DNA from: Lepidostoma basale
Taxonomy: Eukaryota; Arthropoda; Insecta; Trichoptera; Lepidostomatidae
DNA length: 64,000 bases
Reading direction: 5' to 3'
Assembly (NCBI GenBank): GCA_022606425.2
Contig: JAHDVF020000167.1
Span: 372,001-436,000, forward strand
The notes below the pieces were generated by a model. That model was not told the origin of the DNA, searched no databases, and saw only the letters and a list, made by a program, of their open reading frames with translations. Position numbers and translations under genes: made by a program. Below, piece by piece: positions 1,381-62,300 of the stretch (within the stretch, counting starts at the first letter, position 1; every line of letters starts with the position of its first letter).

Positions 1381-1530
1381 TCTGCCGTCGAAAATGGCTG
1401 TTTTCTTTTAAAAAGTCACCATATTTAATGGAAGTGATATTTGATATTGATCTAGCACGACGAAACACGTCATTCCCACAAAACTTAATAAAATTTTCTA
1501 AAACCTACGTCATCAATATAAAATAATTCG
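1381..1530 (+). repeat. hammerhead-like foldback repeat (ACATGT subfamily)
   Basis: A degenerate inverted pair. The right arm carries GAAA followed by ACACGT and C (1462-1471), then the subfamily tail (attcccacaaaac...taataaaa). The left arm is a poor inverse copy. The 5' core box is degraded, so activity is unlikely. It belongs with the clearer copies at 20763-20872 and 39672-39912. Confidence 0.5.
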
Positions 1531-1649
1531 GATTTACATCAGATTCAATGTATAAACTCAATCAAGTTACGCTTTCAATGAAATCTTTCAAATTATAAAA
1601 ATGAATAATATAGCTAAATGAAACTTGAGGCGAAAAGAGAAGGATGGAG

Positions 1650-1724
1650 TACCGCAAAGTGTGACAGTTCATTATTTCTGCCTACCCTTTCGGAGAGATG
1701 GCGTGATGGTTAGTTAGTTAGTTA
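1650..1724 (+). mobile_element. family A 3' end fragment
   Basis: Matches only the last part of family A: the STYPSGE-like codons (cctaccctttcggagagatgg) followed by a (GTTA)n tail. A severely 5'-truncated insertion or relic. Confidence 0.75.
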
Positions 1725-3264
1725 GCTGTATTTTTTTGTCAAATCTTAGGCAACAGTAAAAAATTAACTTGTTTTCAATTGATAAAACATCATTTGAATC
1801 TCAGAGATTTCATCCTATAAGAATCGGTTAAGAAAACAGTTGACTCACAAATAATATATATAAACATTTGATTGCCATTATCTAGGTTCTAATTATGTTA
1901 TTCACTTTAATACTAGATTATAAAAAATCTTTTAATTTGGTTTCCCTAATATATATTTTGTTTCCCAAATATATATTATATAATATAAAACAGTTATGTG
2001 TCAAGAATAATTATATCAGTAGTATATTTAAGGTTAGAATTTCCCGGACTAGTGCGTAGTAAAAGTTATGCCTAAGCAAGATTGTACGAGTATACTCGTA
2101 TATTATATTAGTATAGTGAACGCAGAACTTTATTGAACGCTTGCTAATTCGAGCGCTGAATTTCCGTTGGGCAGATTTAAACAATTTAACAGTGGTATAA
2201 ATAACTCTTCGTTAATAGAAATCTGTATACTGTTAAATCGAACCCCTCAATCGACCCCCTTGACTGTAAAAACATATCAAGTCCTTTATTAAACCGGTAC
2301 AATTAACAACATTTATTTTCATTTCGCCCCAGTTGTCTAGCTGGTTGTTTAAAACTCAATAAAAAGTAATGGATTCCAATCGACCTCCTTGCCTCCGACC
2401 TGCTGAAATGTATGGGCTCCGGGGAGGTGGTTCAATGCGGGATTATCAGAGGGAGAACTTTAAGGCTAAAAACCCACTGGCACGGTTAAACTCGCACGCG
2501 GTTTCCAAAAGGCGACTTTGTAGCGGAACGTTTGACAGATTAATGCGAAAGTCGATGAGATCGCTCAGAATTACAATCCTTGCGGTAAAAATTAACTTTG
2601 CCGTGTTTTTCTCGCTGTTCAGCTATCATTTTATCTCTAAACTGCATTTCATATCTCTCTTTAATTGTCTGTTTAACGATTATATTTTTTATTTAAACAA
2701 ATTAATTGATTATATAAGGTTCCCACCACCACCCGAGACTGTTATGGGACGCAGCGACGCCCTTTCGTCAGTCTCGCTGCACTATCTAGGCCTGTTCCTT
2801 GTCCATCCGGGACTTACGTTAATTTAATTTGGCCTTTTCTTGTCATCAATCAAATTAATTGATTAATAAAAAAATGAGAATAAATCGAATGGTCGTTCTT
2901 CTTCGTCGTGTCAAAAGCAGCTAAGTGAGATATCGTCGGCCTAAAAGTCCGCCAACTGGACGGCACTGTGAACCCTCGAACAAGATCCTCTTCCGTGCAT
3001 GTCATAGGGCAACAAAGGACTCCGTTATGTGCAGCTTGAATTACTCCATGCTACAGAAGCAGGGCGTCGGACCGCCCTGAAGAACATCCACTCTCGCCAT
3101 GTTGTCTTACAGGGTCTACGGTTGAAGATCTTCAAGGTTTTCCGTGGTCACTTGTATCTCGGCGGCATGATCTCCATGGGCATCATCCAATCCAGGCATA
3201 CACAGCTTTCCCTCCAATACAATGATCGTTACTGTCAAGTATGTATTCTTCTTCTTTCGGTATA
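1725..3264. other. unassigned; contains an unsupported open frame
   Basis: 1725-2300 is AT-rich. 2369-2827 is open on the plus strand (152 codons) but shows no recognisable motif; it is probably chance or a relic. 2885-3250 is GC-richer and looks like decayed repeat or coding sequence, but I could not place it in a family. Confidence 0.4.
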
Positions 3265-3445
3265 ATTTCAGATCTTCCCAACGTTATATCACCCAAGAGT
3301 AAGCATTTATGTCCCTGGTAGCTAAAAACAGCTCCTCAAGCCAGTCAAGTCCCTTATGTTATGGAGCCAGAAGATTAACCTCCTGCCAACACCTCGTCGA
3401 CCCAGTATTTTCCCCTCAATGATCAAGTTCAGCAATTCATATGTT
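3265..3445 (-). pseudogene. family B (RTE-like) C-terminal fragment
   Basis: Across frames the minus strand reads LIIEGKI, GRRGVGRR, FWLHNIRDLTGL, the C-terminal signature of a common RTE-like family. Several frame breaks are present. The same family is intact in frame at 24919-25143 and 7444-7740. Confidence 0.7.
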
Positions 3446-4300
3446 TCCCCTTATCGTATGTACTAAATATGCCCGCTTATAGGTTTTAATATTGACCAAT
3501 AATTATCTATTAGCTCTGGCTCTCTGAGAACATTTATTTTTGTGACCATGTCGATCCAAGGAATACGAGTGTATAACATTTTGCGATACAGTCACTTTTC
3601 AAATACCTCCAGCCGATTCATAATAAATGCACATAATGATTTATACTATCTCTCTCGAGTCTTGTTAAGGAACTGACAAAAAATGGCGTCGACGGTTCGT
3701 GACGTACCGCGCGAGTGTGACTTCGGCCTTAGGGGTGGGTTGCCCCCGCGACCCTGTAGGTCCTGTCACTGACGCGAACAATTTCTCACGCCGAGTGCCT
3801 TACGCAAATGGATGGTTTTTACTATCGCGGACGTCTCACTAGAGGACAAATTAAGGAGATGATAAGTTGTATGTCATACGCATGTACCGCCGTACCCAGA
3901 GCCCCGAAGAGCTATTAGCGAGGCCATTAGTAGTTGTTGCACGTTCTGACGATCATCTTCATTATTAAAAAAATCTCCTTCCGACGTAATTAATGTAATA
4001 TTCAAGTTTTATAAAATAAAACCATTTTCAATCGTTGATATTAATATTGTTAAAAAGGTGGTACATAATATATTTTAAAATATTGTTTTTTTATAATAAA
4101 TAAATAGTCATGTACGTCTAATTTTTCGATTGATATTTTATTTACCTAATATTTAAGCCATGACGTGGAAAATAAATACAAGCCATTCACGAATAAAAGC
4201 AATGGATTAGCAATGATATATTTAATGTACCAAACAAGAAGAGGTACTTATTATTATCAAAATAAAAAAATACACTAATAATCCTTTATATGCGTTTAGT
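3446..4300. other. unassigned with GC-rich patch
   Basis: AT-rich except about 3680-3960, which is GC-rich and apparently single-copy within the window. No coding signature. Possible conserved noncoding DNA (inference). Confidence 0.4.
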
Positions 4301-4304
4301 TTTA

Positions 4305-4500
4305 TACCACTTGATTTTTAATTTGTACCGATTTCGTGAGCTCTCTGCCATTTTCTGGATGCAACTTCTCGTTGCATTTTCTGATGAGATGGCAGCGGGC
4401 TGCCGAAACCGGTCGAGGATAAAAATCAAGTGAAATAAAACTTAACGAACTTTATAAAATTATTTTTCTTTCAATATTTAAAATGAATTTCTACCAAGAT
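4305..4500 (+). ncRNA. hammerhead-like repeat (ACCGGT subfamily)
   Basis: CTGATGA at 4381-4387 is followed by three spacer bases, a perfect 5-bp hairpin (GGCAG 4391-4395, CGGG loop, CTGCC 4400-4404), GAAA (4405-4408), the palindrome ACCGGT (4408-4413) and C4414, the expected cleavage position. The spacer is longer than in the other copies, which may impair the core. A degenerate inverted copy lies at 4305-4350. The tail to about 4500 (aagtgaaataaa... then tttaaaatgaat) is shared with the copy at 27444. Confidence 0.6.
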
Positions 4501-7770: not shown

Positions 7771-7944
7771 TAATATGGACCAAATATATCACTTAACCAT
7801 CTTCTGTCTCAAGTTTGAGTTAATTTTGTCATTGCAATTACGTACATTTAACATTTTAATCTCTTTTTTTTTCTTTTGATCGAATTTTTGTAGATTCGTT
7901 ACATTTATTATGTTGCTTTAATGAAATAATATATTAATATTATT

Positions 7945-8555
7945 ATTATTATTATAATAATAAACGCGAATGTTAAATGGTTTTACTTTGTTTTTAATTC
8001 ATATAATTTCTTATACAAATATCAGTTACAAATTTGTTTCACCTTGCGAGGGTATTTTCAAACTGAACCTAGTCGCAAAACAATGTGTCCTTATATTGAT
8101 TTTAAAGAAATTAGGGTGGGGGAAAGAATTTATATAATGCAAATCGAAGGGGCCATTACACTAAACAATTTGAGGTTTTTCCACGATTTTCGTGGATGTT
8201 TTTCCATTTTCGTGGAGGTTTTTCCGATTTTCGTGGAGGTTTTTCCACGTTTTTCGTGGATGTTTTTCCATTTTCGTGGAGATTTTCCGATTTTCGTGGA
8301 GGTTTTTCCACGTTTTTCGTGGAAAAACCTCAAATTGTTTAGTGTAATGGCCCCTTCGATTTGCATTATATAAATTCTTTCCCCCACCCTAATTTCTTTA
8401 AAATCAATATAAGGACACATTGTTTGGCGACTAGGTTCAGTTTGAAAATGCCCTCGCAAGGCGAAACAAATTTGTAACTGATATTTGTATAAAAAATTAA
8501 AGAAATTTAAAACAAAGTAAAACCATTAAACATTCGCGTTTATTATTATAATAAT
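7945..8555. repeat. long foldback element with hammerhead-like arms
   Basis: Two arms of about 240 bp are near-perfect inverted copies (about 7945-8185 and 8318-8555), enclosing a loop of short tandem repeats. Each arm holds a hammerhead-like module. On the plus strand: UUGAAAA 8442-8448, extra U, stem II 8450-8462, GAAA 8463-8466, palindrome ACAAATTTGT 8466-8475, A8476, and a 5-bp stem I (8437-8441 with 8477-8481). The minus-strand mirror is at about 8024-8072. The core has U at position 3 and A at position 8, so it is probably inactive. The 109-codon open frames on both strands are a by-product of the palindrome. Confidence 0.75.
8180..8325. repeat. tandem repeat, about 21-24 bp units, in foldback loop
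   Basis: Repeated units of the form tttttcc-n-ttttcgtgga occur about six times. Each contains small inverted pieces (ccacg/cgtgg), so the centre can form several alternative hairpins. Confidence 0.75.
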
Positions 8556-8710
8556 TATAATTGAGTTTTACAAAACAAAAACCTCAACAATTAATTAATT
8601 AATTAATTAATTAATTTAATTAATATTATTACTAACAAATTTTGATTTTATTAGCTCATTATAAAGGTGAGGCTATGTGAATAAAATTATTGTTTTCTGA
8701 GAATAATTGT

Positions 8711-8790: not shown

Positions 8791-8821
8791 TCAATCGATT
8801 TTGTATAATAAATATAAATGA

Positions 8822-8905
8822 AAACGTCTGTTTTCTAGGAGTTTCATTAAGTTTTATATGGAATGACATGTTTTGCCCTTCTAAGGCATTATCAATCATT
8901 GATGA
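8822..8905 (-). repeat. hammerhead-like repeat (ACATGT subfamily)
   Basis: Minus strand: TTGATAA (8889-8895), one base, a hairpin (GCCTT with AGGGC), AAAA, the palindrome ACATGT (8866-8871) and C. The tail carries the shared ccatataaaac and gaaaacagacgttttcat. Core positions 3 and 8 and the first G of GAAA are changed, so it is probably inactive. Confidence 0.55.
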
Positions 8906-10768: not shown

Positions 10769-12385
10769 AAAACCTTCAATATGTAAATCGAGAAAAATAA
10801 ACTCAAAATTGAAAAAAATATTATTCATAAGATTTTTGGGAATATTCCAGTTTAGTTCCTACTTTATCAAATAGATGTATATAACTTCAGGTGTCACCTT
10901 TAAAAAGAACTTCAAAAATTTAACAAGCTTACTGCAATCTGTACCAACCAATCATTCAATATTAATTGTATTGTTACTGATTTTAGCGATAGCCTTAACA
11001 TCGATCCCATTACAGTTTTTAATAAACAAGTTATTATCTCTTCGATGCGATGTTTATTCGTTGTTATCATATAACTATCTCACGAGACGTCACTGCCTGA
11101 ATACGAAGCGCCACCTCCTCAGAGCTACAGCAACTTATCTGAAAACTCCAATAATAATATATTTGTAGATAGAAAGAAGTTTTGAAACTGAAATAAAAGG
11201 GATCTAGAGAATATCAGTAATGCTTTTCGGGTGTTCTTCGACTAACTGGATATCTTTCTTTTTCTTCAGCAAAGCTTTATTCCCTATCTCTTTCTCTTTC
11301 GCTAGAATCATGCAGTTATATAGTTGGACTGCATTCTTTGTTACTTAAATAAAATGCACACGTTACACTTAAGTCCTTTCAAATAAATGGGGACAGTGTA
11401 TCTTTGTTTATTCTAACAGAAGAAATGGAAACTGATATGAGTCCGCACTTCATTTTAATCACATTCGAAACATATTAAATGTGTCGTTTCACATAGGTAT
11501 AAATAATTGGAATTTAGTTATTATTTTGTATCGTTATCATACCTTTTAATTATTTTGAATAATTGTAGTTGAAATTCTTTCACACCTTCAATATTTTTGT
11601 GACTGGTGATACTGACGTAGTCAACAATAAAGACATTAAAAATCATTCCATTTCACATGTCTGAATATTGATATAGTTAGTATTCTTAGATTAAAAATAG
11701 TTATTGTTTACAGTTATACATTCAAACGATTATTTTTAAATTATTATATTCGTGGGCTTTACAAATAAAGCTTATTTAGGGGTTAAAAATTTACAAATTT
11801 TCGAAATGCTATATAATTTATTCATATAGCTTAAGGGGCAGTCATAAGTATTAAAAAACAAGTATTTTAAATTAAATAAAATTGACAGTAATATAAACAT
11901 TTTTATAAAACCAACAAAATCTGACATTTTAGTCAAAATTCGTCGAAGCATAATGCGTCTCGTAGCGATGACAGATAGATTGACGTTTGTATAAAGTTAA
12001 TGGTTAAACAAAATATTGAAATTATAAAGAAATTTTTATTTCATTTAAATGTTGTGTTCTGAAACATATAATAAATTATTATATTTATTTTGGATTGTAT
12101 ATTTTTTTTATTACAAAAACAATTTATAAAAAAATAATTGTAACTGGAACTACATGCATACTACTGGAAAGTCAACTATTGCATCCTCTCCGTACTCTTC
12201 TTAGCTGTGGGAATACCAAACGCCATTTGCGTCCTTCGCCGCGGATTAGACTAGCTTGGCGGAAAAAAAAACACACCGAAATGGGTAAATTTGAAATTCC
12301 ATTCTGCGCCCGCGGGCCCCGTGCGAAGGGGACCCGCCGCGTTATTGAAACTACAGCGAAATATTTTTCTATTTTAGCCCAGCCG
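10769..12385. other. unassigned; remainder of hammerhead-like repeat at left
   Basis: 10769-10830 completes the repeat interrupted at 9607. 10830-12160 is AT-rich with no recognised feature; short open frames (10875-11168, 12095-12394) lack motifs. 12170-12370 is GC-richer. Confidence 0.4.
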
Positions 12386-12820
12386 CAGTTTTAGGCGGGA
12401 AGCAGACGAAAATTTGAAAATTTAATAGAACCTTTTTCTGACTGACATTATTTAAATTGTGAACATTTTCCACTGTTTTTTTTACCAGGATTCAGTCCGT
12501 AAGTAAAACCAACAAATCCAACAAATTGCTAAATTACTCCAAATTGTTTTCTTAAAATAAGCTTACTTTAAAAAAAATTAATTACATATTAGACATTTTT
12601 CAGTTTAGCAGTTTTAGGCGGGAAGCAGACGAAAATTTGGAAATTCAATAGAACCTATTTCTGACTGACATTATTTAAATTGTGAACATTTTCCACTGTT
12701 TTTTTTTAACAGGATTCAGTCCGTAAGTAAAACCAACAAATCCAACAAATTTCTAAATTATTCCAAATCGTTTTCTTAAAATAAGCTAACTTTAAAAAAA
12801 ATACATATTAGACATTTTTC
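12386..12820. repeat. direct tandem duplication, about 223-bp unit
   Basis: Unit 1 (12386-12608) and unit 2 (12609 to about 12820) share gttttaggcgggaagcag at the start and acatattagacatttttc at the end, with few differences. The second unit runs directly into the minus-strand hammerhead core at 12811-12841; the first ends at the equivalent point, inside the partial motif gacatttttc. Confidence 0.85.
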
Positions 12821-12850
12821 GGACAACCGGTCCTTCTTCAGTGTTTATTA
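12803..12850 (-). ncRNA. hammerhead ribozyme-like motif
   Basis: Minus strand: CTGAAGA (complement of 12835-12841), extra A (12834), a perfect 4-bp stem II (GGAC 12830-12833 with GTCC 12821-12824, loop CGGTT), GAAA (12817-12820), AAATGT (12812-12817) and C (12811). Every core position fits the CUGANGA...GAAA consensus. Stem I is weak and the stem III palindrome is imperfect. Forms a divergent pair with 13081-13129. Confidence 0.65.
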
Positions 12851-13080: not shown

Positions 13081-13129
13081 TATGTATCACTGAAGAAGGA
13101 CCAGTTGTCGGAAACATGTCTGATACGTA
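13081..13129 (+). ncRNA. hammerhead ribozyme, all three stems recognisable
   Basis: Stem I is 9 bp (13081-13089 with 13121-13129, one G-U). CTGAAGA at 13090-13096 matches CUGANGA. One extra A (13097) precedes stem II (GAC 13099-13101 with GTC 13107-13109, loop CAGTT, a G-G mismatch at the base). GAAA is at 13111-13114. Stem III is the self-complementary ACATGT (13114-13119), which has no loop, so the motif should work only as a dimer. Cleavage is expected after C13120. Established knowledge: newt satellite and retrozyme hammerheads use such short dimeric stems. Activity is inferred, not shown. Confidence 0.75.
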
Positions 13130-14120: not shown

Positions 14121-14585
14121 GTAGATATATATTCTTATGTGTATATTTTAAATTGTAATTATGACAATATTAAAGATAAACATTCAATAAACATCGCATT
14201 TAAGAAAAAACATGTAAAAAATTCTTACTGTGAGATCGGAAGTTAGATAAAATAATACTACAATCGTCAGGGACAGCGAGACAGTTCCATATGCATTCAT
14301 AATGAAAGCTCAAAATAGACTTACCCTGAAAGCTTTCACAGGTAAGGAATTCTGCACGAGCCAGTTATAGAATGGCACTTGTCCGCCATATACAAAAATA
14401 ATTTTAAAGATTTTACATATTTCATTTCAGCTCTTCGTAGCAAACAACAGAACATTTTTAATAAAATTACGGCGGATAACACCGTATAATTTCAAATAAC
14501 CACGTATAAGTGTATTCATTTTTTCAAAAAATCGTTAACAAAACTTTGTTTACTGAATTATACCTTTGTACTTTATTTTTACACC
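14121..14585. other. unassigned
   Basis: AT-rich, no recognised feature. Confidence 0.4.
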
Positions 14586-14589
14586 AGTT

Positions 14590-14725
14590 TATTTTATATC
14601 TGTATCTTACCAACCGGTTTCGCTTCCGCCGGAGCTTCGTCGGGATTATTCATTTTCATAACGCTGGCGAAACTTCGAAAAGAGAGAAACCAGTTGGTTC
14701 GATAAAACAAAATAAAGTGATGTAA
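14590..14725 (-). repeat. hammerhead-like repeat (ACCGGT subfamily), inverted pair
   Basis: Minus strand: CCGACGA (14637-14643), extra A (14636), stem II of GCTCC with GG(A)AGC (14622-14635), GAAA (14618-14621), the palindrome ACCGGT (14613-14618) and U at the cleavage position. A mirror copy on the plus strand lies at about 14665-14705 (ctggcgaaac... gagaaaccagttgg). Position 4 of the core is changed. Confidence 0.6.
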
Positions 14726-15449
14726 AAACAAAGTACCCAAGTGTTATTTATTATTTTTATTAATGCCACACCACAAATTTAGTGCCTCATAAGAAAGTTA
14801 AATTTAGTTTGTATGTTTTCTATTTCATTAAATCTTATAAACTCACTTGCACATCATATTACCACGAAGTAATGAGTATATTCAAGTAAATTAAAATTGT
14901 ATAGTTCTGTATCCAAACAAATGTATAAAATACTCGTATAAGATAAATAGGAACAAAAAACACAGAGTTAATTTAAAAAAAGTTTTTAGTTGAAATTGTT
15001 AAACGAATGAATAAACTATAAGCATCATGCTCTTTATCTTTTAACGTCAACTTGTTCGGTAAAATTATTTGCGGTTTATTATTCATAAACCTAAGTGCAC
15101 ACTTGTCAACAGTAGCTACCCTCTGGGACAGTGTGCACTCTGCACTATGCAGGTCTAGAGGTGAGAAAATCTTGACATTATTTTTTATTTCGTGTCATCC
15201 ATCAAATATTTCATCTGCACTATTATCATATTATTGAGACATCAAAAGATACTCACGTTTACACACATTTATTTGTAAACTAAATGGATTTTTCTATAAT
15301 ATAAAACGTGAAAATTAACAAATATTTAAGTAATTTAGCTAGGTTTTTAAACAAAACCTTAAATTAATGCGAATAAAAACCTCAGTCTTTTTTAAGTTTT
15401 ATTCTATTTTATGGAAATTATATTTTTCGCTTCGCTTAGACTTTATCTA
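14726..15449. other. AT-rich, unassigned
   Basis: No recognised gene or repeat. Short open frame 15052-15237 lacks motifs. Confidence 0.4.
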
Positions 15450-15570
15450 ATATTTTGAGATGTATTAATCGCCATGGCACACGTTTCGCTTTGATTAGAC
15501 ATTTAATAATGCCTTAGCAAAGCAAACATGTCATAGCCATAAAATAAAGCGAAGTTTTACATACTGGGGA
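15450..15570 (+). repeat. hammerhead-like inverted pair (ACATGT subfamily)
   Basis: Plus arm: a GCCTT/AAAGC-type hairpin, then caaac, the palindrome ACATGT (15526-15531) and C15532. Left arm is the inverse (cacacgtttcgctttgatta). Cores degenerate. Confidence 0.5.
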
Positions 15571-15659
15571 GTTTTATATAATCGTTCAAGAACGATAAAT
15601 AAAACCTGACATACGTGTTAATTATTTTACAATTATGTTAAATGCCATATTATATATTT

Positions 15660-15830
15660 AGTATTCATGAAAAATCTCTGTTTTCTGTACGTTGTATTGC
15701 ATTATATGGGAATGACATGTTTCGTGTTTTTATGCCATAGATATTAATGCGGTAGCATGGCGGAATATGACATTTTCATACAATATAAAGAAAACTTCTA
15801 GAAAACAGACGATATATTGAATAGTTATGT
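15660..15830. repeat. hammerhead-like inverted pair (ACATGT subfamily)
   Basis: Left arm on the minus strand: CGAAA before ACATGT (15715-15720), with the ccatataatgcaat tail. Right arm (about 15750-15820) carries gcatggcggaa and ends in the shared tail cttctagaaaacagacg. Cores degraded. Confidence 0.5.
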
Positions 15831-18110
15831 AACAATATAAATAAAAATACAAATATTAATCACTTTGTGAGAAATCAGTAAAATCAATGTGTTTTAATTA
15901 AATAATCTTAATGTCTTATTTCACTCGCGGAATACAAAGAATGATGATATCTTCAATTATTGTGGTATTCGAACTATTTTTGCGAAATTCGTTTTCTTTG
16001 AAACAATCAAGATAATGGATAGACGAAACAAACGAGGAAAGAGTCATTAAATCTTTGATTCTGTTCGTAATTTGATAACTCCCGCTAGTAATTTAAGTCT
16101 AAACAAATTGATGATCCCGAAAAATGATAGCGGCGAATTAAAATGGTAATCCTTAATAAAATCAAAAGTCCTCGGCTTCGGGATTACATGAGGTTTACAA
16201 CTTCGAGTCATCTTTTAATTGAATCCAAGTCCGTCGGCAAAATAAATACCTACATTCTGTTTGTCTTCCCGTTGGTGCGCTCTTTGCTCAATTAATTAAT
16301 ATAACTTTAATTTGAATTGAATTTAAATTCTCACGGATGGATACACTCCCCAATGAAGTTTCGGGAAAGATAAATGAAACATTCTCCTACGTCATTTAAA
16401 AATACGGAAAGTTATTGTTGGCTGTTTAAGTTCCTTTGTGTATCGCAATCGTCTAGACGTAATCCAAATCTTGGAGCTAAAGGATTTAGATGAGCGCTGG
16501 AGAAATGAAATGCGGATAGTTATTTTGTCATCTTATTTTGGAGATAATTGAAACGTGGTTTAAAATATATTCCCCTAAAGAAAAGTACACGAGCGCTGTA
16601 CAGAGTGGATATTTTAGAAAAACGCGTCTCTTATCGAGAATCTTCCAAGCTCTATAGTTTCCACTGATTATTGGTATATTGTATATTTTGATGCATTCAG
16701 TTTTCTTCTAATAAAATCATGAATACTGTTTTTATATTCATGGAAGATTTCCATTCTTTCCGATAAGTTTATATGAGGCGTACGGAAATAAAATTGATAA
16801 AAAAAAACTCGAACGTTTCCTTATAAAGATGGCATATTTGTGCCCGCGCTGGCATTGTTGTTGTTGACATTCGTCAGACGGTAAAATATGTTTATCTTGT
16901 ATTTAACGCTTCATTTCCTCCGCGGGCTGGCAAAGCCGGTATTCCCGGAAAAAAATTCTTCTCGCCGAGGCACCTTCAAATTTCCAAGTTCGGGAATTCA
17001 AACGAACCCCGTCGTAAAATGCCGATCGCACACTTTTCACATTATACGATCGGTTTGAGGCACAAAAAGAGGGAATAATCCAGTCATCCATGCCGTGATC
17101 GAATGACAGTCGAATCAAATGAGTGGCCTCCGCGGGATACAGAAGGAGGGGCGCGGGCGCGAGGCCCGCTGCTCGCTGCTCGCTACTGTCTTGTCACGTC
17201 ACGGTTCATGATATTTTACTGCCTTTTTTAAATATACTTTACGACCCTATTTGGCAGAATGGATTTAGGACACCGGTTGAATAGTTAAGTACCTTAAGCA
17301 ATAGCTCGATGATCTCGAGATTACGCTATTTTATGTTTAGTAGGTAGAGTATTAAAACGATAATTCGCTAGTTTAGAACATTTCGAAATTCTAAAAAGAA
17401 AGCTGTCCTTTTTAAACCCTACTTTTTTATCGCCCCTGGAAAAAGGCGAGTGTAATTTGCTGGTATAAAAGTGAACTCCCATATTCTAAGGGTTACGCGA
17501 AAATGAGACTTCGCAGAATATCTGACCTAACAACCAATACCCCGTACGACCGCGCCCGATCAATGCAGTCATTAGACCGCTTCCAGTCGTATCTTATGTC
17601 CCTCTCGGCGAACACTTTGCTGCATTTTTTTTTCGCCGCGAAGTTGTACCTTTTACCTAGAATTGGGCGCGCTCTGACGGCACAAGTGTGTAGCTCGTTC
17701 ATTTCTCTTTTGTGCAGAAAGAAAGTGGTCGCAATCGCCGGCCCGCCTCCCCACCTCCCCGCTAATGTATCGATAAGTATTTGAGCGCTGTAAAGTTCCG
17801 TGTGCTCGCGGAGCATTCGACTCTCGACGTTGCTTTATTTGAACGACCCTCTTGCCCCTCCTGTCCTCGGCCCGGCGCAAGTTGGGGCGCTCCGCTGAAT
17901 TTCTCCGTCTCGATCGCGAGAGACGCTCAAAGCAAACGTCGATTAGGTGGGAATAGCTCTGTTATAATATAATGCAATTTGGCAATGAAGTTTTGTTACT
18001 TCCATAACCTTTCCGTTGTATTGTGATTTTTCATTCAATAAAAATTAAAAAAAAACACAGTTTTAGCAGAAACACACCGATATTTCAATATTATTAACTG
18101 ATTAATTGAA
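15831..18110. other. apparently single-copy DNA with GC-rich islands
   Basis: 16060-16600 and 16850-17220 are less AT-rich than average; 17490-17970 is clearly GC-rich. Open frames here on both strands (17493-17972) reflect low stop density, not a recognised protein. 17157-17190 contains a short gctgctcgct tandem. Candidate regulatory or untranslated DNA (inference). Confidence 0.4.
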
Positions 18111-18149
18111 ACACCATTATAATATCAAATTTGATTAAATTTCTATGAA

Positions 18150-18202
18150 ATTGTCGCGACAGCTGTTCCGCTAACTAATGTTAGCATCATCAGGTCAACA
18201 AT
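18150..18202 (-). ncRNA. hammerhead ribozyme-like motif (ACAGCTGT subfamily)
   Basis: Minus strand: stem I 8 bp with one bulged A (18194-18202 with 18150-18157, one G-U), CTGATGA (18187-18193), extra U (18186), a perfect 6-bp stem II (GCTAAC 18180-18185 with GTTAGC 18170-18175, 4-base loop), then GGAA where GAAA is expected, the palindrome ACAGCTGT (18159-18166) and C (18158). The single A-to-G change in the second core box should inactivate this copy, but all three helices are preserved. Confidence 0.7.
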
Positions 18203-18225
18203 ATACTAAAAACGTTTTTGTTGAT

Positions 18226-18276
18226 TGTAGCACCTGACGATGCTCACATTGGTTAGCGAAACAGCTGTCACGACAA
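18226..18276 (+). ncRNA. hammerhead ribozyme-like motif (ACAGCTGT subfamily)
   Basis: CTGACGA (18234-18240), extra U (18241), stem II of 5 pairs plus one mismatch (GCTCAC 18242-18247 with GTTAGC 18252-18257), GAAA (18258-18261), ACAGCTGT (18261-18268), C18269. Both core boxes match consensus. Stem I is imperfect (attgt with acaat outside a mismatched base). Divergent partner of 18150-18202, with about 30 bases between. Confidence 0.65.
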
Positions 18277-18309
18277 TTTCATATAAATTGAATCAATTGC
18301 TATATTATA

Positions 18310-19280
18310 AGCGTTTCAATATTTTTTTTTTAAATAGCTAATACGACGTGTTTGTGAGTAAAGTAAGGTAATCTTCAAATATAATAATTCATTTACACGA
18401 TCATAAATAAATGATCATTAATGTGTTTTCCACGAACAGCCCTGGGATCTTTAAAAAATGGGATTAACATTAAAGCGGCCATAATTGCTATACAACTTCA
18501 CCTCGAAATTAGAGGTAGCCGGCGGGCCTACCGAATTAATAATTACCTAAGTAAGTGAGTTCAGTTAATATTTACACGTGTAAAACACTCGGAGGGTAGG
18601 GCGGGGAGCGGAGGCGGGGGCGTAAGGGCGGATCCACACGGGCCGGGCTCCGATAAGCCAGATCAGCCGTGTGCCCCGCATATCTGTATGTAAATGGCGC
18701 TCGATTCAATATCGCATGACAATTCCCCCGGCCGCGGCCCGGAGCCGGGGGCAGAGGTCGGCCGGCTACAGGGGCTGCCGGGGCTATCGGGCCAACGGGG
18801 ATAGTTGGAACCAAACTTTCATTTCTTGTGTTCTCCTGTTTACTCACAATACAATCATGTATTCGTAAATAAGACTATGAATTAGTTCAATCCCAATCTG
18901 ATTGATCGCAAAAATGACACCCTGTACTCTATTAAATTATCACAAACATTTTGCGATCGCGTAAGAGAAATGCATATTACAGTTTTATGTAGCGGTATAA
19001 TTAACGTTATCAATCAATTAAATCTTCAATGTAAATACAACTTTGACTTTTTTCATATGCATTATTCATTGAAACTTATACTTTAATTTTTCATTGAATT
19101 TCAACCACAATCTATGTATATATAATACCTAAGTTGTTTTTTTTATTTCAGTGGTAATTTTGATCGATTTCGGAAATTTTACTTCTGATGATTTAAGCTA
19201 CATATTTGTAAAAAATATAAATTAGTTATTATACAATCGAAGAATTGAATAAATTATGACAATTTACATATATGAGATTG
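18310..19280. other. unassigned; GC-rich island 18560-18830
   Basis: 18560-18830 is strongly GC-rich with low stop density on both strands; no domain recognised. Flanks are AT-rich. Confidence 0.4.
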
Positions 19281-19289: not shown

Positions 19290-19375
19290 ATCTTTATATG
19301 TTGTTTTTAACACCTGATGATGTCAACATAGGTTATAAAACAACAGTATTATGAAACGTCGTAACAGTTATTCAA
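19290..19375 (+). repeat. degenerate hammerhead-like repeat
   Basis: CTGATGA (19314-19320) with extra T, then gtcaacataggttat resembling stem II of the ACAGCTGT subfamily, followed by AAAA instead of GAAA. Stem III is degraded. Confidence 0.5.
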
Positions 19376-20330: not shown

Positions 20331-20464
20331 CAATGATAAACCTGAAGAATTTACCCTCCCATAATGACAAGTTAACATAAGTAAAAATTATGTCATATGT
20401 TTTTTTAAGCATCTAGACTAATGACGTTAAACTTCATTTTCAATACTTAATATTAACTTACACG

Positions 20465-20600
20465 TTCGTTTTCTATAAGTTTTTGTTTATTTTATAGGAG
20501 TGACTTGTATCGCTTTGGTGGATCAAATTAACGTTTGTAAATACGTTACCTGTGTCACTCGTATACAATAAAATCTTCCAGATAACTGACGTTTTCATTC
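20465..20600. repeat. degenerate hammerhead-like inverted pair
   Basis: Arms share the subfamily ends (cgttttctataagttttt... and ...ctgacgttttcattca) around a decayed centre. Confidence 0.45.
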
Positions 20601-20762
20601 ATACTATATAGTCACCGTGTCAATATCTATTTACAATATGTTTCAATTTTTCACTTTTTTTTTCAATTTTTGCGCGAACATATTTTCGAACTTGTTAAAA
20701 CTGAATATTTACAAAATTATTTATTGTTTCTTGAAAAATGTTGTACAACTCCATATTAAAAA

Positions 20763-20872
20763 ATTAATACGAATGAAAACGTCAGTTTTTTAGAAGTTTA
20801 GGCGAAACACGTCATTCCCATAAAATATAATAAAACTTCTAGAAAACTGACGTTTTCATTCGTATTAATTAT
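20763..20872 (+). repeat. compact palindromic hammerhead-tail repeat
   Basis: The outer 28 bases or so are near-perfect inverted repeats (attaatacgaatgaaaacg ... cgttttcattcgtattaat). The centre keeps GGCGAAA, ACACGT (20807-20812) and C20813, but lacks the 5' core box; only half a motif remains. Confidence 0.6.
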
Positions 20873-21520
20873 ATTCAAAATTATTAATGTGTGTATAATC
20901 TAATTTTTAAAGTGTTCTAACCACAATCAATTATAATCTTTTGAGATCCTTATGATTTGCGTTTAGCCAAAAATAATTTAATTATATAGAAGCTATGTGC
21001 ACTGTTGTAATCATGTTGTGTATGTATTTATTTTTGTTCGGTTTTGTGTTGTTGCCTCGATCTTACCATTTATATTAGTCTGTAACAACTGAGACGGAAC
21101 ACAATCTACGTATAAAAGGTGCAAATCTATGCTATAATCGGGAGTCTGTGAATAAGGTTTATCTCGTTCATTCTGCTCCGCACTCGCATTGTACAGGTGT
21201 TTGAGATAATACTTAGCTCAGATTCAAAGACCGGGTATTGTTTGATCACGACTTCTGAGATTATAGCACCGGTAAGCATATTCACAGGTGGAACAGGAAT
21301 AAAGATTATCGGGGAGTGAATGAATACTTTTCAAAAATATTTTTCAGTTATAAAATACCCACAAATATAAGTTCAAGTTTTTTTTTTGTGAAATTCCATT
21401 ATGAATCATATGGGAATTATTAGGATGTAACCCCAGATATAAGTAGGATTTTTTCTGATTCTAGTTGAGCAAATAGGGATTGCTTATAATCTTAAATAAA
21501 AAAACTTTTTTTTAATGTAT
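20873..21520. other. unassigned; promoter-like patch
   Basis: 21060-21330 is GC-richer and contains TATAAAAGG near 21111-21119. It could be a decayed LTR or promoter but nothing else supports that. Confidence 0.35.
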
Positions 21521-22200: not shown

Positions 22201-23027
22201 ACTCAAGAAAACAAAATATTTAACAATGTATAGTATGTACTAGCAAGAATAAAAATGTTCAGCCTATAAAATATACTAAATTGTCTAGAAAACTGATATT
22301 ATTATTTACAATGAATACTTCATATGGATTTTAATATAAATTTTTGTGTGACAATAAATTAAATCTTAACGTTAATCATGCTTCTGTGTCAAACATATTA
22401 TGTAATAAGTCTAAGAATGTACGATCACTTAAATAAATAAAGTTATTCGGAAGATTTAATCTAGCGGGTTATTCCATTATTTATCGGAGGCAATATATTT
22501 GATTGAAAGCAACCCGCTCCGTTTCGGTCCAGATTGAAAGTTTGCTTGCGTAATAAGACGTTTGTCACTAACTGGAGCCCGTGTCCAAAATCAAGGGCGG
22601 GAATACTTTCCTCTTTCTCCTTCTTTGTAGGATCCCTCGTCCTCTCGGCTGTAATGGATCGGCGGTCCTTTGTCAGGCGGACGTGGAAAGTTGATCAGAA
22701 TGGGGGGATAGTCGAATCCATTTAGGATGTGACGTGTCCCTCATTATACCCCCAGAGATGTTTCGGATGCTAAGAGAAACTAAATTTTCATTGCGGATAG
22801 AACCGGTTTAATAAACATTTTTGCTGTATTGTCTTACGTCTGTAACTATGAAAATTACGTAAACCTCATTTTCTTAATAGTTCATGTAAATAGTTTTTCG
22901 TTTTATAACGAAGTCGTTTCTAAAAAGCATGAATGAAAGTGATTCTGTACAATAATAAAATTGGAATTTTATTTAACTTTTCGAAAACGCACTTACATTT
23001 GTTAAACTAAAAAAAAATAAACTAACT
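22201..23027. other. unassigned; GC-richer 22490-22740
   Basis: A fragment of hammerhead-tail sequence (tctagaaaactgatatt) occurs near 22275. 22490-22740 is GC-richer, no gene recognised. Confidence 0.4.
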
Positions 23028-24625: not shown

Positions 24626-24704
24626 GATTGGTTTTACCGAAATGATACTACAACATTACTGACTATTAAAATATAAAACTCAAACCAAATTTGTTATATC
24701 ACAA

Positions 24705-24765
24705 TTTTTTTTCGCGACAGCTGTTTTATCGACCTATGTTGATATCATTGGGTATTGGAATATTT
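24705..24765 (-). repeat. hammerhead-like repeat (ACAGCTGT subfamily)
   Basis: Minus strand: AATGATA, stem II of 5 of 6 pairs (ATCAAC with GTCGAT), AAAA, the palindrome ACAGCTGT and C, then gcga as in 18150. Core boxes decayed. Confidence 0.5.
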
Positions 24766-25244: not shown

Positions 25245-25330
25245 TCATATGTCGATGCCAGCGAGCCTAGCGAAACCGGTCGCTGTCGAAATAAATACAA
25301 AAGTGGAAGCAGTTAAAAACATCGTTTTGT
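25245..25330 (+). ncRNA. hammerhead-like repeat (ACCGGT subfamily)
   Basis: GTCGA, extra T, stem II of GCCAG with CTAGC (one mismatch), GAAA, ACCGGT, C. The 5' box reads UGUCGA rather than CUGAUGA. The tail (ctgtcgaaataaataca, aagtggaagcagttaaaaa) matches 27444 and 50960. Confidence 0.55.
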
Positions 25331-27441: not shown

Positions 27442-27590
27442 TTCTGTCGATGCCAGCGAGTCTGGCGAAACCGGTCGCTGTCTAAATAAAGACAAAAGTG
27501 GAAGTAGTTAAAAAACATCGTTTAATTTAATTATTATTTAAAATGAACTTCCATCAAGAGATTTCAGTAAAATCATTTGATTATCTTAAA
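27442..27590 (+). ncRNA. hammerhead-like repeat (ACCGGT subfamily)
   Basis: CTGTCGA (27444-27450), extra T, a perfect 5-bp stem II (GCCAG 27452-27456 with CTGGC 27462-27466), GAAA (27467-27470), ACCGGT (27470-27475), C27476. Core position 6 (A in active ribozymes) is U. The tail to about 27590 (agtggaagtagttaaaaaac, ttaaaatgaacttccatcaa) is shared with 4415-4500 and, inverted, with 50850-50930. Confidence 0.6.
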
Positions 27591-32959: not shown

Positions 32960-33090
32960 AATTATGAAAGTTTTAATATATCATATAGGAATAACATATT
33001 TAGTCTAGCTAATGCTTTAGCAAGGTAAAACATATCATTCTCATAAAATCTAATAAAACTTCTAGATAACAGTTGTTTTCATTCATATTC
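32960..33090 (+). repeat. hammerhead-like inverted pair (ACATGT subfamily)
   Basis: Plus arm: TAATGCTTTAGCAAGGT, AAAA, ACATAT, C, then attctcataaaat and the cttctagataacag tail. Left arm mirrors it (ggaataacatat). Cores decayed. Confidence 0.5.
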
Positions 33091-39059: not shown

Positions 39060-39145
39060 ATATGTTTCAACTTAATAATAATATGTGCCTAGCAAAACAT
39101 GTCACACCTATAAAGTATTATAAAACTTTTAAAAAAATATATTTT
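39060..39145 (+). repeat. degenerate hammerhead-like repeat (ACATGT subfamily)
   Basis: gtgcctagcaaaacatgtca followed by the cctataaagtattataaaac tail. The 5' core is lost. Confidence 0.5.
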
Positions 39146-39189
39146 TCAATATTATTTATTGATGAATTTTAAATGATAATGCATACTTG

Positions 39190-39520: not shown

Positions 39521-39671
39521 ATTTGAACAAACGAGGAATACTTTATAGGAGGAAATAACTTTATGTTCAAAATAAAAAGCGACAATTTTAGACGTCAGAA
39601 TAATCTCTTTACTTGTACGTACATTACATAATTATCGTTTCTTGAACACTGTTGTGAATCTCCATGTTAAA

Positions 39672-39912
39672 TAATTAATACGAATAAAAACGTCAGTTTT
39701 CTAGCAGTTTTTTTATGAATTACATGTTTCGAATGTTTAAGGCATTATCAAATGTAGCGATACATACACGAGTTAAAGGAGCAGAATGCGATAATAAGGG
39801 CAAATTATCGTATAATTTTAGCTACATCTGATAATGCCTTAGACAGGCGTGACGTGTCATTCACATATAATATAATAAAACTTAAAGGACATTTTCATTC
39901 GTATTAATTACG
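39672..39912 (+). repeat. hammerhead-like inverted pair (ACATGT subfamily), long spacer
   Basis: Outer ends (aattaatacgaataaaaacg ... cattcgtattaatta) are inverted. Plus motif: CTGATAA (39828-39834), extra T, GCCTT with AGGC, GTGA, CGTGTC. The minus motif near 39715-39760 has TTGATAA and CGAAA before ACATGT. Both carry A at core position 8. Confidence 0.6.
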
Positions 39913-42344: not shown

Positions 42345-42540
42345 AAATAATTCGAAGGAAAACGTAAATTTTCTAGAAGTTTTATTATATTTTATGGGAA
42401 TGACATGTGCTTAGGCACTATTAAATTTGGTAGGGCATTATCATTGAAAAAGGCATTTACTGAGTGACACATGCCATTTAAAAAAATAATGCTTTTAGAA
42501 AAGAGACGTTTTCATTCATATTAATTGTTTAATATGGATA
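42345..42540. repeat. hammerhead-like inverted pair (ACATGT subfamily)
   Basis: Left arm: attttctagaagttttatta, gggaatgacatgtgcttagg; right arm: tgacacatgcc, ttttagaaaagagacgtttt, cattcatattaatt. Centre keeps gggcattatcattg. Cores decayed. Confidence 0.5.
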
Positions 42541-43114
42541 TTTAGATCAAGAAACAATAAGTTAATATTTCAACCTGATAATACTATATATGTCTTATAA
42601 TTGAATGTTTTGTTTTCCAAAACATAATACATATTTCCATAAACAATGAACGATGATAATGAATATGATAATATTAAATTACAACAAAAGCAAAAATTGT
42701 TAATATATGTTTACTGTATTTAACTCCCTCATTCAAAATTGGATATTGAATAGTTCCTTTAGGCATTAAAAATCTAAATAAATTAAAAAAGATTTAAACT
42801 TTAATTGGAAACTATAACTTGGTCGTTTGACTTATTTAAAAGTAAATAAATATATCCCTTGTGTATTAACCACTTTATTAAATACAGTGGTTAATACAAA
42901 GAAAAAAATATATTTTGGAACTAGAATTGCAATCTGAAAAGTAACGATCAATTAATCGGCGGTTTAAACTTTTAATTAACTCACAAGTCTGTAGATCGAA
43001 AGATGACGAAAATTATATTTAAAATAAAACATGGATTATAAAGAATTCTATAAAGAAGAAAACATCTATGTTATAAGTACGAAGTCTTATTTTATTATAT
43101 CAATCGTGAATAAA
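42541..43114. other. AT-rich with a perfect small hairpin
   Basis: tgtattaaccact and agtggttaataca (about 42860-42898) form a 13-bp perfect inverted repeat with a short loop. No gene recognised. Confidence 0.5.
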
Positions 43115-45784: not shown

Positions 45785-45965
45785 TTGTAATTAATACGAA
45801 TGGAAAAACACTAATTTCTAGAAGTTTAATTATATCTTACGTTAATGCCACGTTTCGCCTGTCTAATGACATGTCAAATGTTTGATAATACTTAAGACAT
45901 GAGAAACATGTCATTACCATACAATATAATTAAACTTCTAGAAAACAGACTTTTTCATTCTAATA
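45785..45965. repeat. hammerhead-like inverted pair (ACATGT subfamily)
   Basis: Ends attaatacgaatgg and tttttcattctaat; left arm CACGTTTCGCCT, right arm TTTGATAATAC... GAGAAACATGTC near 45878-45922. Stem II is decayed in the right arm. Confidence 0.55.
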
Positions 45966-47021: not shown

Positions 47022-47115
47022 ACGTTGATGAGAACATCCGTTTACTTGAAGTCTTATTATTTTTTGTGGGAGTAACATGTTTTGCCTTGCTAGGGAAATT
47101 TATTGTGGCATTCCA
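47022..47115 (-). repeat. hammerhead-like repeat half (ACATGT subfamily)
   Basis: gggagtaacatgttttgcct (stem III ACATGT, AAAA, GGC...) with the shared tail inverted at left. Truncated at right. Confidence 0.5.
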
Positions 47116-49689: not shown

Positions 49690-49885
49690 ATTCATTTAAT
49701 TTGTAGCGTTGCGTTATTAAAAAAATAAAACAATTGTTGACTTTGTTTTTACAATACTTTATTTTGTTCTATCGAACCAACCGGTTACGCTTCTGCCGGA
49801 GCTTCGGAGTTTCAAAACATGCTTGAGTTTGTTTTAATATAGAAGCGGTTGGCTTTTTCTCATTTTTTTTTTATCTTTCAAATAA
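49690..49885 (-). repeat. hammerhead-like inverted pair (ACCGGT subfamily)
   Basis: Minus strand: CTCCGAA, stem II (GCTCC with GCAGAAGC), GTAA, ACCGGT (49780-49785), as in 14590-14725. Mirror remnant at 49845-49855 (gaagcggttggc). Core decayed. Confidence 0.55.
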
Positions 49886-50849: not shown

Positions 50850-51045
50850 TAATGATTTTACTGAAATCTCTTGATGAATGTTCATTTTAAATTATAATTA
50901 AAAACGATTTTTTTAACTACTTCCACTTGAGTCTTAATTTAGACAGCCGGCAGACCGGTCTGTCGATGCCAGCGAGCTTGGAGAAACCGGTTGCTGTCGA
51001 AATAAAAAATAAAGTGGAAGTTGTTAAAAATCATCGTTTTTAAAA
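50850..51045 (+). ncRNA. hammerhead-like inverted repeat (ACCGGT subfamily)
   Basis: CTGTCGA (50960-50966), extra T, stem II (GCCAG and CTTGG), GAAA (50983-50986), ACCGGT (50986-50991). A second ACCGGT-C (50954-50960) directly precedes the 5' box, so two cleavage-site-like palindromes bracket one core, as expected for a junction of tandem units. gacagc (50942-50947) can pair with gctgtc after the core. Outer arms (aactacttccactt ... aagtggaagttgtt) are inverted. Core position 6 is U. Confidence 0.6.
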
Positions 51046-52544: not shown

Positions 52545-52670
52545 ATGAAAATGACCGTTTTCTAGAAATCATTTAAATATTTTAAAGATATTGCATTTAA
52601 TACTACTCTAGCAAGGCGAAAAGTATCACTTGATTAAAATATAATAAAACATCTGAAAACGGACGGGTCT
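52545..52670 (+). repeat. hammerhead-like inverted pair (ACATGT subfamily)
   Basis: Plus arm: tagcaaggcgaaaagtatca, then tataataaaacatctgaaaa. Left arm mirrors the tail (accgttttctagaaatcatt). Core decayed. Confidence 0.5.
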
Positions 52671-54589: not shown

Positions 54590-55881
<1,292 letters not shown>

Positions 55882-56980: not shown

Positions 56981-56985
56981 ACATC

Positions 56986-57002
56986 TGGTCCTTCGAGCCG
57001 GA
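56986..57002 (+). other. primer-binding site
   Basis: TGGTCCTTCGAGCCGGA begins with TGG, complementary to a tRNA CCA end, a few bases after the LTR. This type of site is known from BEL/Pao elements. Confidence 0.75.
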
Positions 57003-57023
57003 TCTTGGACTTGGCTGAAGAAG

Positions 57024-59813: not shown

Positions 59814-59831
59814 GATTACAAGGGGTGGAAA
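59814..59831 (+). other. polypurine tract
   Basis: acaaggggtggaaa directly precedes the 3' LTR start (TGTTTAGG), as required for plus-strand priming. Confidence 0.7.
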
Positions 59832-60969: not shown

Positions 60970-60976
60970 TAATAAC
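60970..60976 (+). repeat. target-site duplication, right
   Basis: TAATAAC, identical to 55882-55888. The length is slightly above the usual BEL 4-6 bp, so one or two bases may match by chance. Confidence 0.75.
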
Positions 60977-61139
60977 CTATCCATTTACTTTTCTTGTTGG
61001 AATAAATAAATATAAACTAAAACATTTCCACGGTTTCTGTAAATTAATCAGTATTGGTTGTTATTTAATAATCATTAAAAATGTTATATTTGATTTGTTT
61101 TAATAATTCTGATTCCCTTCGTAATAGTTATTCTTATAC
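60977..61139. other. AT-rich spacer
   Basis: Nothing recognised. Confidence 0.4.
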
Positions 61140-61235
61140 CAAACCAGAGTAGAAGATAGCAGCGGGCTACCAAAACCATTAAAATCTAAAATTACAAGTG
61201 AAATAAATCAGAATATTTAGTATAAACAAAGAAAC
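61140..61235 (+). repeat. hammerhead-like repeat (as 4305-4500)
   Basis: gatagcagcgggctaccaaa then accatt and aaatctaaaattacaagtga, co-linear with 4388-4440. GAAA and stem III are mutated. Confidence 0.5.
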
Positions 61236-61299
61236 TTACTAAAAAAATTGTTTCCGTATAGTTAAAATTTACATACTTAGTTAAATTTTAATTATTCAT

Positions 61300-61385
61300 C
61301 TTCTATTTTGAACAAGTTTCGTCTGTTTGCTGCATCGAGCTGTCGAAACGGATTTGAAATAGAAGAATAAAAAGTTGATCAAAAT
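61300..61385 (+). repeat. degenerate hammerhead-like repeat
   Basis: gctgcatcgagctgtcgaaa then cggatttgaaatagaagaat with an inverse tail at left (cttctattttgaacaagttt). Stem III palindrome lost. Confidence 0.45.
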
Positions 61386-61940
61386 TTTGTATTTTTCATA
61401 AAACTTTCGATAACATTATTTTTTAAATATGTACTTTTACGGATAAATGTATCAAAAAATTGTAATGGAAATGAAGTAGTAAATATTTTCAGCTGAATTC
61501 CAATATCAACGCTTAGAAGTGGGCTTAATAATTATCTGTCCGCACTTGCTATCGGTAAAATGTTTTAATCGTCGATACAAGTACCGGCTTGTACTGTAAA
61601 AAATCTCAAAGCGAACAAGATGTATCCCGTACCCATCCAAAGGAAACAGTTTTTGTGCATCATTCCAACCGATAAATGTTCCGAGCCCGATCCTTTGATA
61701 CTCCTTTGACAATCACGCTGGTACACCGATCATGATAGGGCGGAAGTCTGCAAGTGGTCTGGCATCAATCCGAGAAGAGCTCTTCTGAAAGACAGTGAGT
61801 ACAGTCAGCTGTATAAATATTTCCAAACAAATTTAACCGGATTAGAAAATTTTTATCTTTCATAACAATTGAACGCAATATTAAAAATAATCAAATTAAC
61901 ACTATTTATCGTTTCTTGAATGATGTTGTTAAACTCCAAG
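61386..61940. other. unassigned; 61500-61810 coding-like
   Basis: A 68-codon minus frame (61506-61712: TFIGWNDAQKLFPLDGYGIH) looks less random than its surroundings but is not recognised. Likely a transposon relic or a chance frame. Confidence 0.35.
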
Positions 61941-62300
61941 TTAATGATAATGTACGTTTTTTAGAAGTTTTGTTATAGTTTTTGGGAATGACATGTTTCG
62001 AATTTCTTAAGCTTTATCAAATGTCTAATGCATTTCATACTGACATTTCAAATCAAATCAAATCAGTTTATTTCATCAACAGACATTACAAAATTTATTT
62101 TTAAGGCATCTATTGAGAACAGGTAAAATAATATATTATGTATAGTATACTACCAGGAACGCATGAGAGATGGTTCAACATTAGAAAGACAGGATACTCT
62201 CCAGAATTAAGAGTATTTGACAATGCCTTAATAAGGCGAAACATGTCATTTCCATCACTATAATAAAACTTATAGAAAACAGACATTTTCATTCATGTTA
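61941..62300 (+). repeat. hammerhead-like inverted pair split by family F insertion
   Basis: Left arm (61950-62030): tagaagttttgttatag, gggaatgacatgtttcgaat. Right arm: TTGACAA, extra T, GCCTT with AAGGC (perfect 5 bp), GAAA, ACATGT, C near 62218-62251, then the tail to cattcatgttaattaa. Between them lies a family F copy (62048-62208). Confidence 0.65.
62048..62208 (-). repeat. family F repeat nested in hammerhead-like pair
   Basis: Starts with the reversed simple tail (aaatcaaatcaaatcagttt), then tctattgagaacagg, gcatgagagatggttcaaca and gaattaagagtattt, as in 51526-51730. Confidence 0.7.

Follow-up and report, generated by a model that had tools for sequence, protein, structure and literature searches.

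Repeat families in the window

The stretch analysed here, called the window throughout, comprises 64 kb of the caddisfly Lepidostoma basale (contig JAHDVF020000167.1, positions 372,001 to 436,000) and consists of AT-rich, animal-like DNA with fragments of non-LTR (long terminal repeat) and BEL/Pao retroelements. Dispersed through it are short repeats with hammerhead ribozyme-like cores, which are probably remnants of Penelope-like elements (PLEs). A profile census gave 38 arms, an arm being one repeat copy, in families A (5), B (4), C (3), D (24) and E (2). Families A–D were collected by nhmmer searches iterated from hand-picked seeds at E < 1e-3, the seeds matching their own profiles by construction, and the pair at 8.2 kb was added to the nhmmer set as family E. 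A sixth family, F, with three arms (14643-, 14664+ and 49807-), was found in a later search. The initial annotation had counted about 30 loci in four subfamilies; the repeats are real, and these numbers make that count, if anything, low. All four of its stem II variants and its three palindromes were recovered, belonging to families D, B, A and C. The order of parts that it described, namely box, one extra base, hairpin, GAAA, palindrome and C/U/A, is present in the window, although not every copy has it in full. Families A–F are new to us, and the kind itself is known.

Hammerhead-like cores and their preservation

Hammerhead position numbering is used throughout. The invariant core, CUGANGA...GAAA...UH with the C3-G8 pair or its compensated equivalent, keeps all its nucleotides in 10 of the 38 arms, four of them as C3-G8 and six as U3-A8; this count is lenient, since the core parser chooses the best-scoring frame. 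A contiguous stem II of at least 3 bp is found in seven of these ten. The earlier view that one fold is kept in some 30 copies is not supported by these counts. An extra base after A9, also foreseen there, occurs in most cores, and the loopless stem III is likewise found, as palindromes without a loop in families A–E and as ACCGGT in family F at 14643 (-).

The family B foldback (18093..18313, 221 bp, inverted repeat I6) consists of two head-to-head arms and is near-palindromic throughout, with the centre AAAAACGTTTTT. Its core at 18234..18269 (+) has all core nucleotides intact, arranged as CTGACGA-T-stem II-GAAA-ACAGCTGT-C, and the left-arm core at 18158..18193 (-) carries GGAA in place of GAAA. 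Two single B arms have decayed cores, one of which served as a seed (24662..24762 (-), nhmmer E 4.8e-19; the other is 19299..19347 (+), E 4.8e-9). In family C, the left-arm core at 12811..12841 (-) is intact, with stem II GGAC/GTCC and stems I and III mostly broken, and stem II of the right-arm core at 13090..13120 (+) opens with a G10.1 x G11.1 mismatch followed by 3 bp. Family C also forms a partial direct tandem (12385..12820 (-), 2.0 units of 224 nt), the edge of which lies at G12 of the C core and the second unit of which opens with a truncated core near 12603. Family A includes a foldback at 4293..4447 (arms 4293-4351 and 4389-4447, 78%; inverted repeat I13) with an intact canonical core at 4381-4414 (+), in which stem II is displaced by 3 nt; its left partner matches the A profile at E 0.13 only. 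A second A foldback lies at 50910..51030 (arms 50910-50947 and 50993-51030, core 50960-50992 (+), inverted repeat I23), and further A cores were found at 25249..25281 (+), with the decayed box ATGTCGA, and at 27444..27476 (+), with CTGTCGA (A6U), stem II GCCAG/CTGGC and ACCGGT.

The family E foldback (7942..8561, 620 bp, inverted repeat I1) has 255-nt arms (7942-8196 and 8307-8561) that are 95% complementary. Its core at 8442..8476 (+) reads TTGAAAA (U3-A8), stem I, stem II, GAAA, ACAAATTTGT and A; in the left-arm core at 8027..8061 (-) the first stem II pair is A-U instead of G-C, both sides having changed. The family F foldback (14505..14802) has arms at 14505-14648 and 14659-14802 with cores at 14643 (-) and 14664 (+), and the third F arm (49698..49807 (-)), which was not a seed, was recovered by nhmmer at E 1.5e-17. 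Contiguous stem I pairs number nine in C 13090+, five in E 8442+ and 8061-, and four in A 4381+ and 50960+.

Families D and E share a two-letter change in which the core pair C3-G8 is replaced by U3-A8. Position 8 of family D is A in 15 of 15 readable rows and position 3 is U in 12 of 13, and the E box is UUGAAAA in both arms; with UUGAUAA as its consensus, this largest family does not have a CUGANGA box. The excerpt of PMC3088659 describes U3-A8 covariation in several natural hammerheads and cites activity in vitro; U3-A8 alone is therefore no reason to regard D and E as dead. The likeness lies in a compensatory core-pair change; the difference is that here a 24-arm family has the change fixed in its consensus, as has a second family like it. 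As D and E have stem II and loop letters in common, the change may have been a single event. Most copies should no longer cleave, the present ones being mostly dead, and 18234+, 13090+, 8442+ and 8061- are the best candidates for cleavage activity.

Stem covariation and tests against chance

Covariation was assessed on nine well-preserved cores from five families, chosen by us, with 500 shuffles and slid controls. In stem II, 81.5% of cells were paired compared with 53.4% after shuffling, a level reached by none of the 500 shuffles, and the covariation score was 0.731 against 0.260 (0/500; maximum of the slid controls, 0.306). Stem II thus covaries between families, as had been proposed. The 3-8 pair is CG in six and UA in three of the nine cores. 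Inside family D the stem II pattern is mostly decay, the stem being kept by some arms only. These counts were taken from alignment A1, in which the row A4381 is out of register yet counted, which lowers the pairing; a MAFFT alignment, A2, misplaced stem II and served for none of the counts.

A scored structural descriptor (box, extra base, stem II, GAAA and loopless stem III) was run on both strands against 60 local dinucleotide shuffles. It returned 11 sites with a score of at least 12 (shuffle mean 2.07, maximum 6) and five with a score of at least 14 (mean 0.13, maximum 2), so that hammerhead-like cores do exceed a dinucleotide-shuffled background, as expected from the initial annotation; at a score of at least 9 the excess is unconvincing (57 sites against 41.1, maximum 59). 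Three of the 11 sites lay outside the families then known (14643-, 45039+ and 43038+), and 14643- later proved to be family F. A strict descriptor, which gave six sites only, some plainly spurious, was dropped in favour of the scored one.

A covariance model, R1, trained on eight cores of families A, B, C and E, was used for an unfiltered search of the window. All 13 matches below E 0.02 fell inside the families; eight were the training sequences, and the other five were D 62217+ (E 2.8e-5), F 14643- (E 8.2e-4), D 8895- (E 9.7e-4), A 25249+ and A 4381+. Four further D arms followed at E 0.17-0.51, making 6 of 24 D arms below E 1. Because three non-family sites (23119-, 20666- and 38064+, E 0.13-0.48) are intermixed with these weaker D arms, R1 cannot tell decayed D copies from background. 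Since E resembles D in stem II and loop, the test on D is not fully independent; unlike D, family F is an independent test of R1.

Foldback architecture

That the cores are dispersed in small foldbacks, as initially described, is borne out. Thirteen pairs are head to head, with the minus copy on the left and the plus copy on the right, and the F pair makes 14; in three of the 13 the two hits overlap and so form palindromes. No tail-to-tail pair was found within one element, the two tail-to-tail rows being neighbouring foldbacks, and the only direct neighbouring pair belongs to family C. At E < 1e-3 a partner is missing for 12 of the 38 arms; for two of these, 4365+ and 52595+, there is a weak one. 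The distance between arms varies, from overlapping at 33.0 kb and abutting at 45.88 kb to 192 nt at 62.1 kb, which argues that the copies formed separately and against a single foldback unit having spread.

Four D foldbacks carry an extra outer tail of about 40 nt on one arm only. The tail is on the left arm at 39629..39908 (280 bp), at 20722..20875 (154 bp, with the left arm truncated within the arm) and at 61891..62293 (tail 61891-61952; arms 61943-62022 and 62215-62293, with an intact U3-A8 core at 62217-62247 (+)), and on the right arm at 42356..42578 (tail 42515-42578; arms 42356-42425 and 42460-42516). A fifth foldback (15373..15602, arms 15373-15451 and 15501-15557) has a weak tail match (E 0.0024) on its right arm at 15567-15602. 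The tail profile gave no match at E ≤ 10 to the four mate arms of the tailed foldbacks, and no foldback with a tail on both arms was found. Three of the four tails were grouped independently as repeat family D14, to which the left arm of the foldback at 20401..20598 (arms 20462-20525 and 20552-20598) is also related by a 66% match at 20401-20482; this arm may bear a decayed tail (tail profile E 2.2).

Two flank repeats make convincing candidates for target-site duplications. The D foldback at 39.8 kb is flanked by the 13-bp repeat TACGTACATTACA (39616-39628 and 39909-39921; 0 of about 300 controls), and that at 20.8 kb by the 10-bp repeat CAAAATTATT (20712-20721 and 20876-20885; control fraction 0.01). 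The B foldback at 18.2 kb is suggestive, with an exact 10-bp flank repeat TTTCAATATT (18083-18092 and 18314-18323; control fraction 0.035); its left arm is about 21 nt longer, the tail boundary being drawn from the sequence and the flank repeat.

Further D foldbacks lie at 45802..45958 (abutting arms 45802-45879 and 45880-45958), 15669..15811 (arms 15669-15738 and 15743-15811) and 32965..33082 (overlapping arms 32965-33023 and 33007-33082). At 52545..52665, an arm (52595-52665 (+)) has a weak left partner (52545-52608, E 0.0023). Single D arms are found at 1439..1515 (+) (E 1.1e-12), 8817..8895 (-) (E 1.1e-18, the best D profile score, with a UUGAUAA box and AAAA for GAAA), 47028..47098 (-) (E 1.5e-14) and, in decayed form, 22236..22305 (+) (E 1.2e-8) and 39087..39148 (+) (E 1.8e-7).

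Origin of the foldbacks

We consider it probable, at roughly 0.75, that these loci are the remnants of at least six PLE insertion families, reduced to one or two pseudo-long terminal repeats (pLTRs), mostly head to head, each with a minimal type I hammerhead. PLEs had been named among hammerhead hosts in the initial annotation, and the evidence leads there; the superfamily built around hammerheads in its own right, which it favoured, is not supported, the head-to-head order, the single-arm tail and the duplications being consistent with inverted PLE pLTR remnants. In the excerpt of PMC3846280, the Penelope elements of Adineta vaga have head-to-head inverted pLTRs with junction palindromes and target-site duplications of 8-10 bp, a 31-bp tail that is optional on one inverted pLTR, and unrelated DNA caught between solo pLTRs, the authors proposing self-priming. 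These elements and Poseidon of Anolis (PMC11167929) resemble the present arms in the head-to-head pLTRs, the junction palindromes, an optional tail of 30-40 nt on one copy, the putative short duplications, and the placing of an ATG at the stem II base, some 25-30 nt before the cut. In PMC11167929 the hammerhead stands at the start of the open reading frame (ORF), which begins at stem II and is cut 26 nt after the ATG; reverse transcription begins at internal RNA sites, which account for the tail, and catalytic mutants do not block insertion in vitro. In the window, an ATG occupies the stem II spot in most A, B and D cores and in E 8442+, and by eye the coding capacity of A and B from this ATG is suggestive.

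The hammerheads of PLEs are described as minimal, without helix III, in the excerpts of PMC6155905 and PMC7761336, and reviews, as far as excerpted, report minimal type I hammerheads dispersed by the thousand in animal genomes. Those cited in the excerpts of PMC6155905, PMC7761336 and PMC11620745 have the same type I order as the arms here, likewise lack helix III and are, like them, dispersed in non-coding DNA and pLTRs; theirs are reported to cleave as dimers. In contrast to them, D and E carry U3-A8 and D is without most of stem I. The extra base after A9 in most cores here may be a further difference. Arms of B and D, at about 100-140 nt, are shorter than the described pLTRs (181-218 bp), whereas those of E are longer (255 nt). 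A further difference from A. vaga and Poseidon is that no reverse transcriptase (RT)/GIY-YIG gene was found beside the pLTRs in the window, with 9 of 21 long ORFs scanned.

On this origin, transcripts of tandem pLTRs would contain two hammerheads joined via the palindromic stem III, with cleavage falling after C17, or after A17 in family E. AT-rich DNA would be nicked by the PLE protein, which would begin reverse transcription at an internal RNA site, downstream of the hammerhead; the optional tail would follow from the site chosen. The growing cDNA would then turn back, in many cases close to the hammerhead, through self-priming or a template switch. This would yield a foldback with head-to-head arms between duplicated target sequences of about 10-13 bp. 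The internal start and dimer cleavage are carried over by analogy from published PLEs, and turning back near the hammerhead is our own suggestion.

Several observations weigh against a PLE origin or limit what it can explain. A Pfam scan of 9 of the 21 ORFs of at least 130 aa detected no PLE protein, only RVT_1 (two) and a Pao peptidase (one); the missing RT/GIY-YIG gene is compatible with non-autonomous remnants, which need none. Searches for outside relatives gave 0, 0, 1 and 0 matches for the viral-contig patterns, the single match being 18 bases and possibly chance, and 0 for a genome-contig pattern. The Rfam hammerhead search that had been proposed initially gave no match, either on the window, taken at the gathering score or E ≤ 10, or on three separate pieces (101-151 nt, E ≤ 10), as would be expected if the Rfam models need helix III. 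A coding start is not established, as A and B differ in the frame that the ATG takes with respect to GAAA. Without protein, the PLE hammerhead studied in PMC11167929 showed no cleavage, and no reads ended at the cut site. As to present activity, 28 of the 38 arms have no intact core, being decayed or truncated. None of ten isolated 68-nt pieces folded with stems I and II and a free core as the predicted minimum-energy structure, and five whole foldbacks were predicted to form long hairpins on both strands. Of five covariation measures, two stayed within the shuffles (both-side pair changes, 39/500; further pair types, 158/500). Stem I of family D never reaches three contiguous pairs at the core, both core-proximal pairs being present in 10 of 24 arms, and the 13 D arms compared are homologous only as far as about -4 of the box; upstream blastn comparisons among D arms mostly returned the opposite arms, as we read the coordinates. 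The E-values of the D tails (8e-18 to 4e-12) belong to the profile's own four seeds and thus prove nothing. Only 3 of 12 foldbacks have an exact flank repeat at the arm ends (13, 10 and 10 bp), the best shared word in the other nine being microsatellite (E), away from the ends or not above controls; the control fraction of the B repeat would fail correction for 12 tests, and the 13-bp duplication exceeds the range reported for A. vaga.

Among other origins, foldback DNA transposons similar to miniature inverted-repeat transposable elements, moved by a transposase that recognises their outer ends, come first. The copies are short, palindromic, AT-rich and dispersed, and with D, the largest family, deviating at two core positions and without most of stem I, its hammerhead likeness would be partly chance. 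However, the outer ends are asymmetric, with the D tail on one arm only, in place of symmetric terminal inverted repeats; the two best duplications are unequal, and the inter-arm distances speak against one fixed propagating unit. Moreover, R1, trained without D, matches two D arms below E 0.001, and the layout is common to five further families. We regard such transposons as an unlikely source. Still less probable are live hammerhead foldbacks, whose transcript would self-cleave in the right arm and which would move as foldback RNA: family E, with stems I and II, a U3-A8 core, highly complementary arms and a stem II pair of which both members differ from one arm to the other, speaks for such an element, but the predicted long hairpins on both strands, the many arms without an intact core and the unequal arm spacing of the D copies all argue against it. 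Retrozymes are non-autonomous tandem elements that owe their spread to circular RNAs made by pairs of type I hammerheads. They resemble the loci in type I layout and short repeats and count insects among their hosts (PMC7229834, in excerpt), but the retrozymes of that excerpt are direct tandems of about 170-400 nt with canonical helices and loop-loop contacts, whereas the pairs here are head to head and the lone direct pair is the partial C tandem with its truncated second-unit core; retrozymes, too, are improbable.

Within the PLE origin, the point at which the foldback turns might be set by the hammerhead itself: self-priming or a template switch would be directed by hammerheads, folded or cleaved, or by annealing of their stem III, and D and E would be U3-A8 lineages selected for it. 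Two observations point this way, namely the D homology that stops about 4 nt before the core and the family A arm at 50.9 kb that starts after the predicted cleavage site, the ungapped right arm beginning one base past it; we hold the idea to be doubtful. That this A arm starts exactly at the cleavage site was kept as a lead only, since this is a lone case and allowing a 5-nt gap lets the similarity (ACCGGTC) resume past the site.

Other sequences in the window

The centre of the family E foldback (8172-8323) is a tandem array of 20- to 64-nt units (GAGGTTTTTCCACG...TTTTCGTGG) that lies between the arms and reaches slightly into them. A non-LTR 3' end repeat (ACTAACTAACCATCACGCCGTCTCCCCGAAGGGG...) occurs at 6805-7104, 23020-23220, 27028-27327, 51050-51349, 52995-53195 and elsewhere, with 11 listed copies of 68 nt, and adjoins family A arms at 27.0 and 51.0 kb. 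A single weak A/F-like stretch at 23619-23670 (-), with the stem II region apparently deleted, ends in AGCGAAACCGGTTGGT, a 16-mer shared with 14622 (-). Weak matches of the D, E and R1 models coincide at 38044-38143 (+) (E 0.21, 0.14 and 0.48, respectively), perhaps a very decayed arm. Another foldback, of two nested inverted repeats (113 nt, 90%; 50 nt, 92%), lies at 21572-22148 and contains no family match. A 300-nt direct repeat, 99% identical (55886-56185 and 59829-60128, 3.9 kb apart), surrounds a BEL/Pao-like ORF at 56952-59717 and probably represents its LTRs, and a TA-rich simple-sequence array of about 870 bp extends over 54593-55459.

Significance

The ten intact cores per 64 kb come from one chosen window and give no estimate for the genome. 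The density called unusual in the initial annotation is high here, but it rests on this single window; for a coral genome, the excerpt of PMC7229834 gives more than 6000 hammerhead motifs in total. A literature search for Penelope hammerheads with Lepidoptera found none, and we do not claim that such foldbacks are unreported. If neither the turning-point idea nor the U3-A8 idea holds, the loci would be a case of ordinary repeat decay. There is no agreed role for PLE hammerheads; the turning-point idea, if true, would give them a part in the construction of the integrated structure. Within 64 kb, over a dozen pLTR foldbacks of six families, some with readable junctions and duplications, offer natural insertions in which the turning point can be counted against the core and the cleavage site, and the U3-A8 families test the wholesale replacement of a core pair in a spreading element. 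Although the kind is already known, the packed number of copies and the two-letter core change are worth a look.

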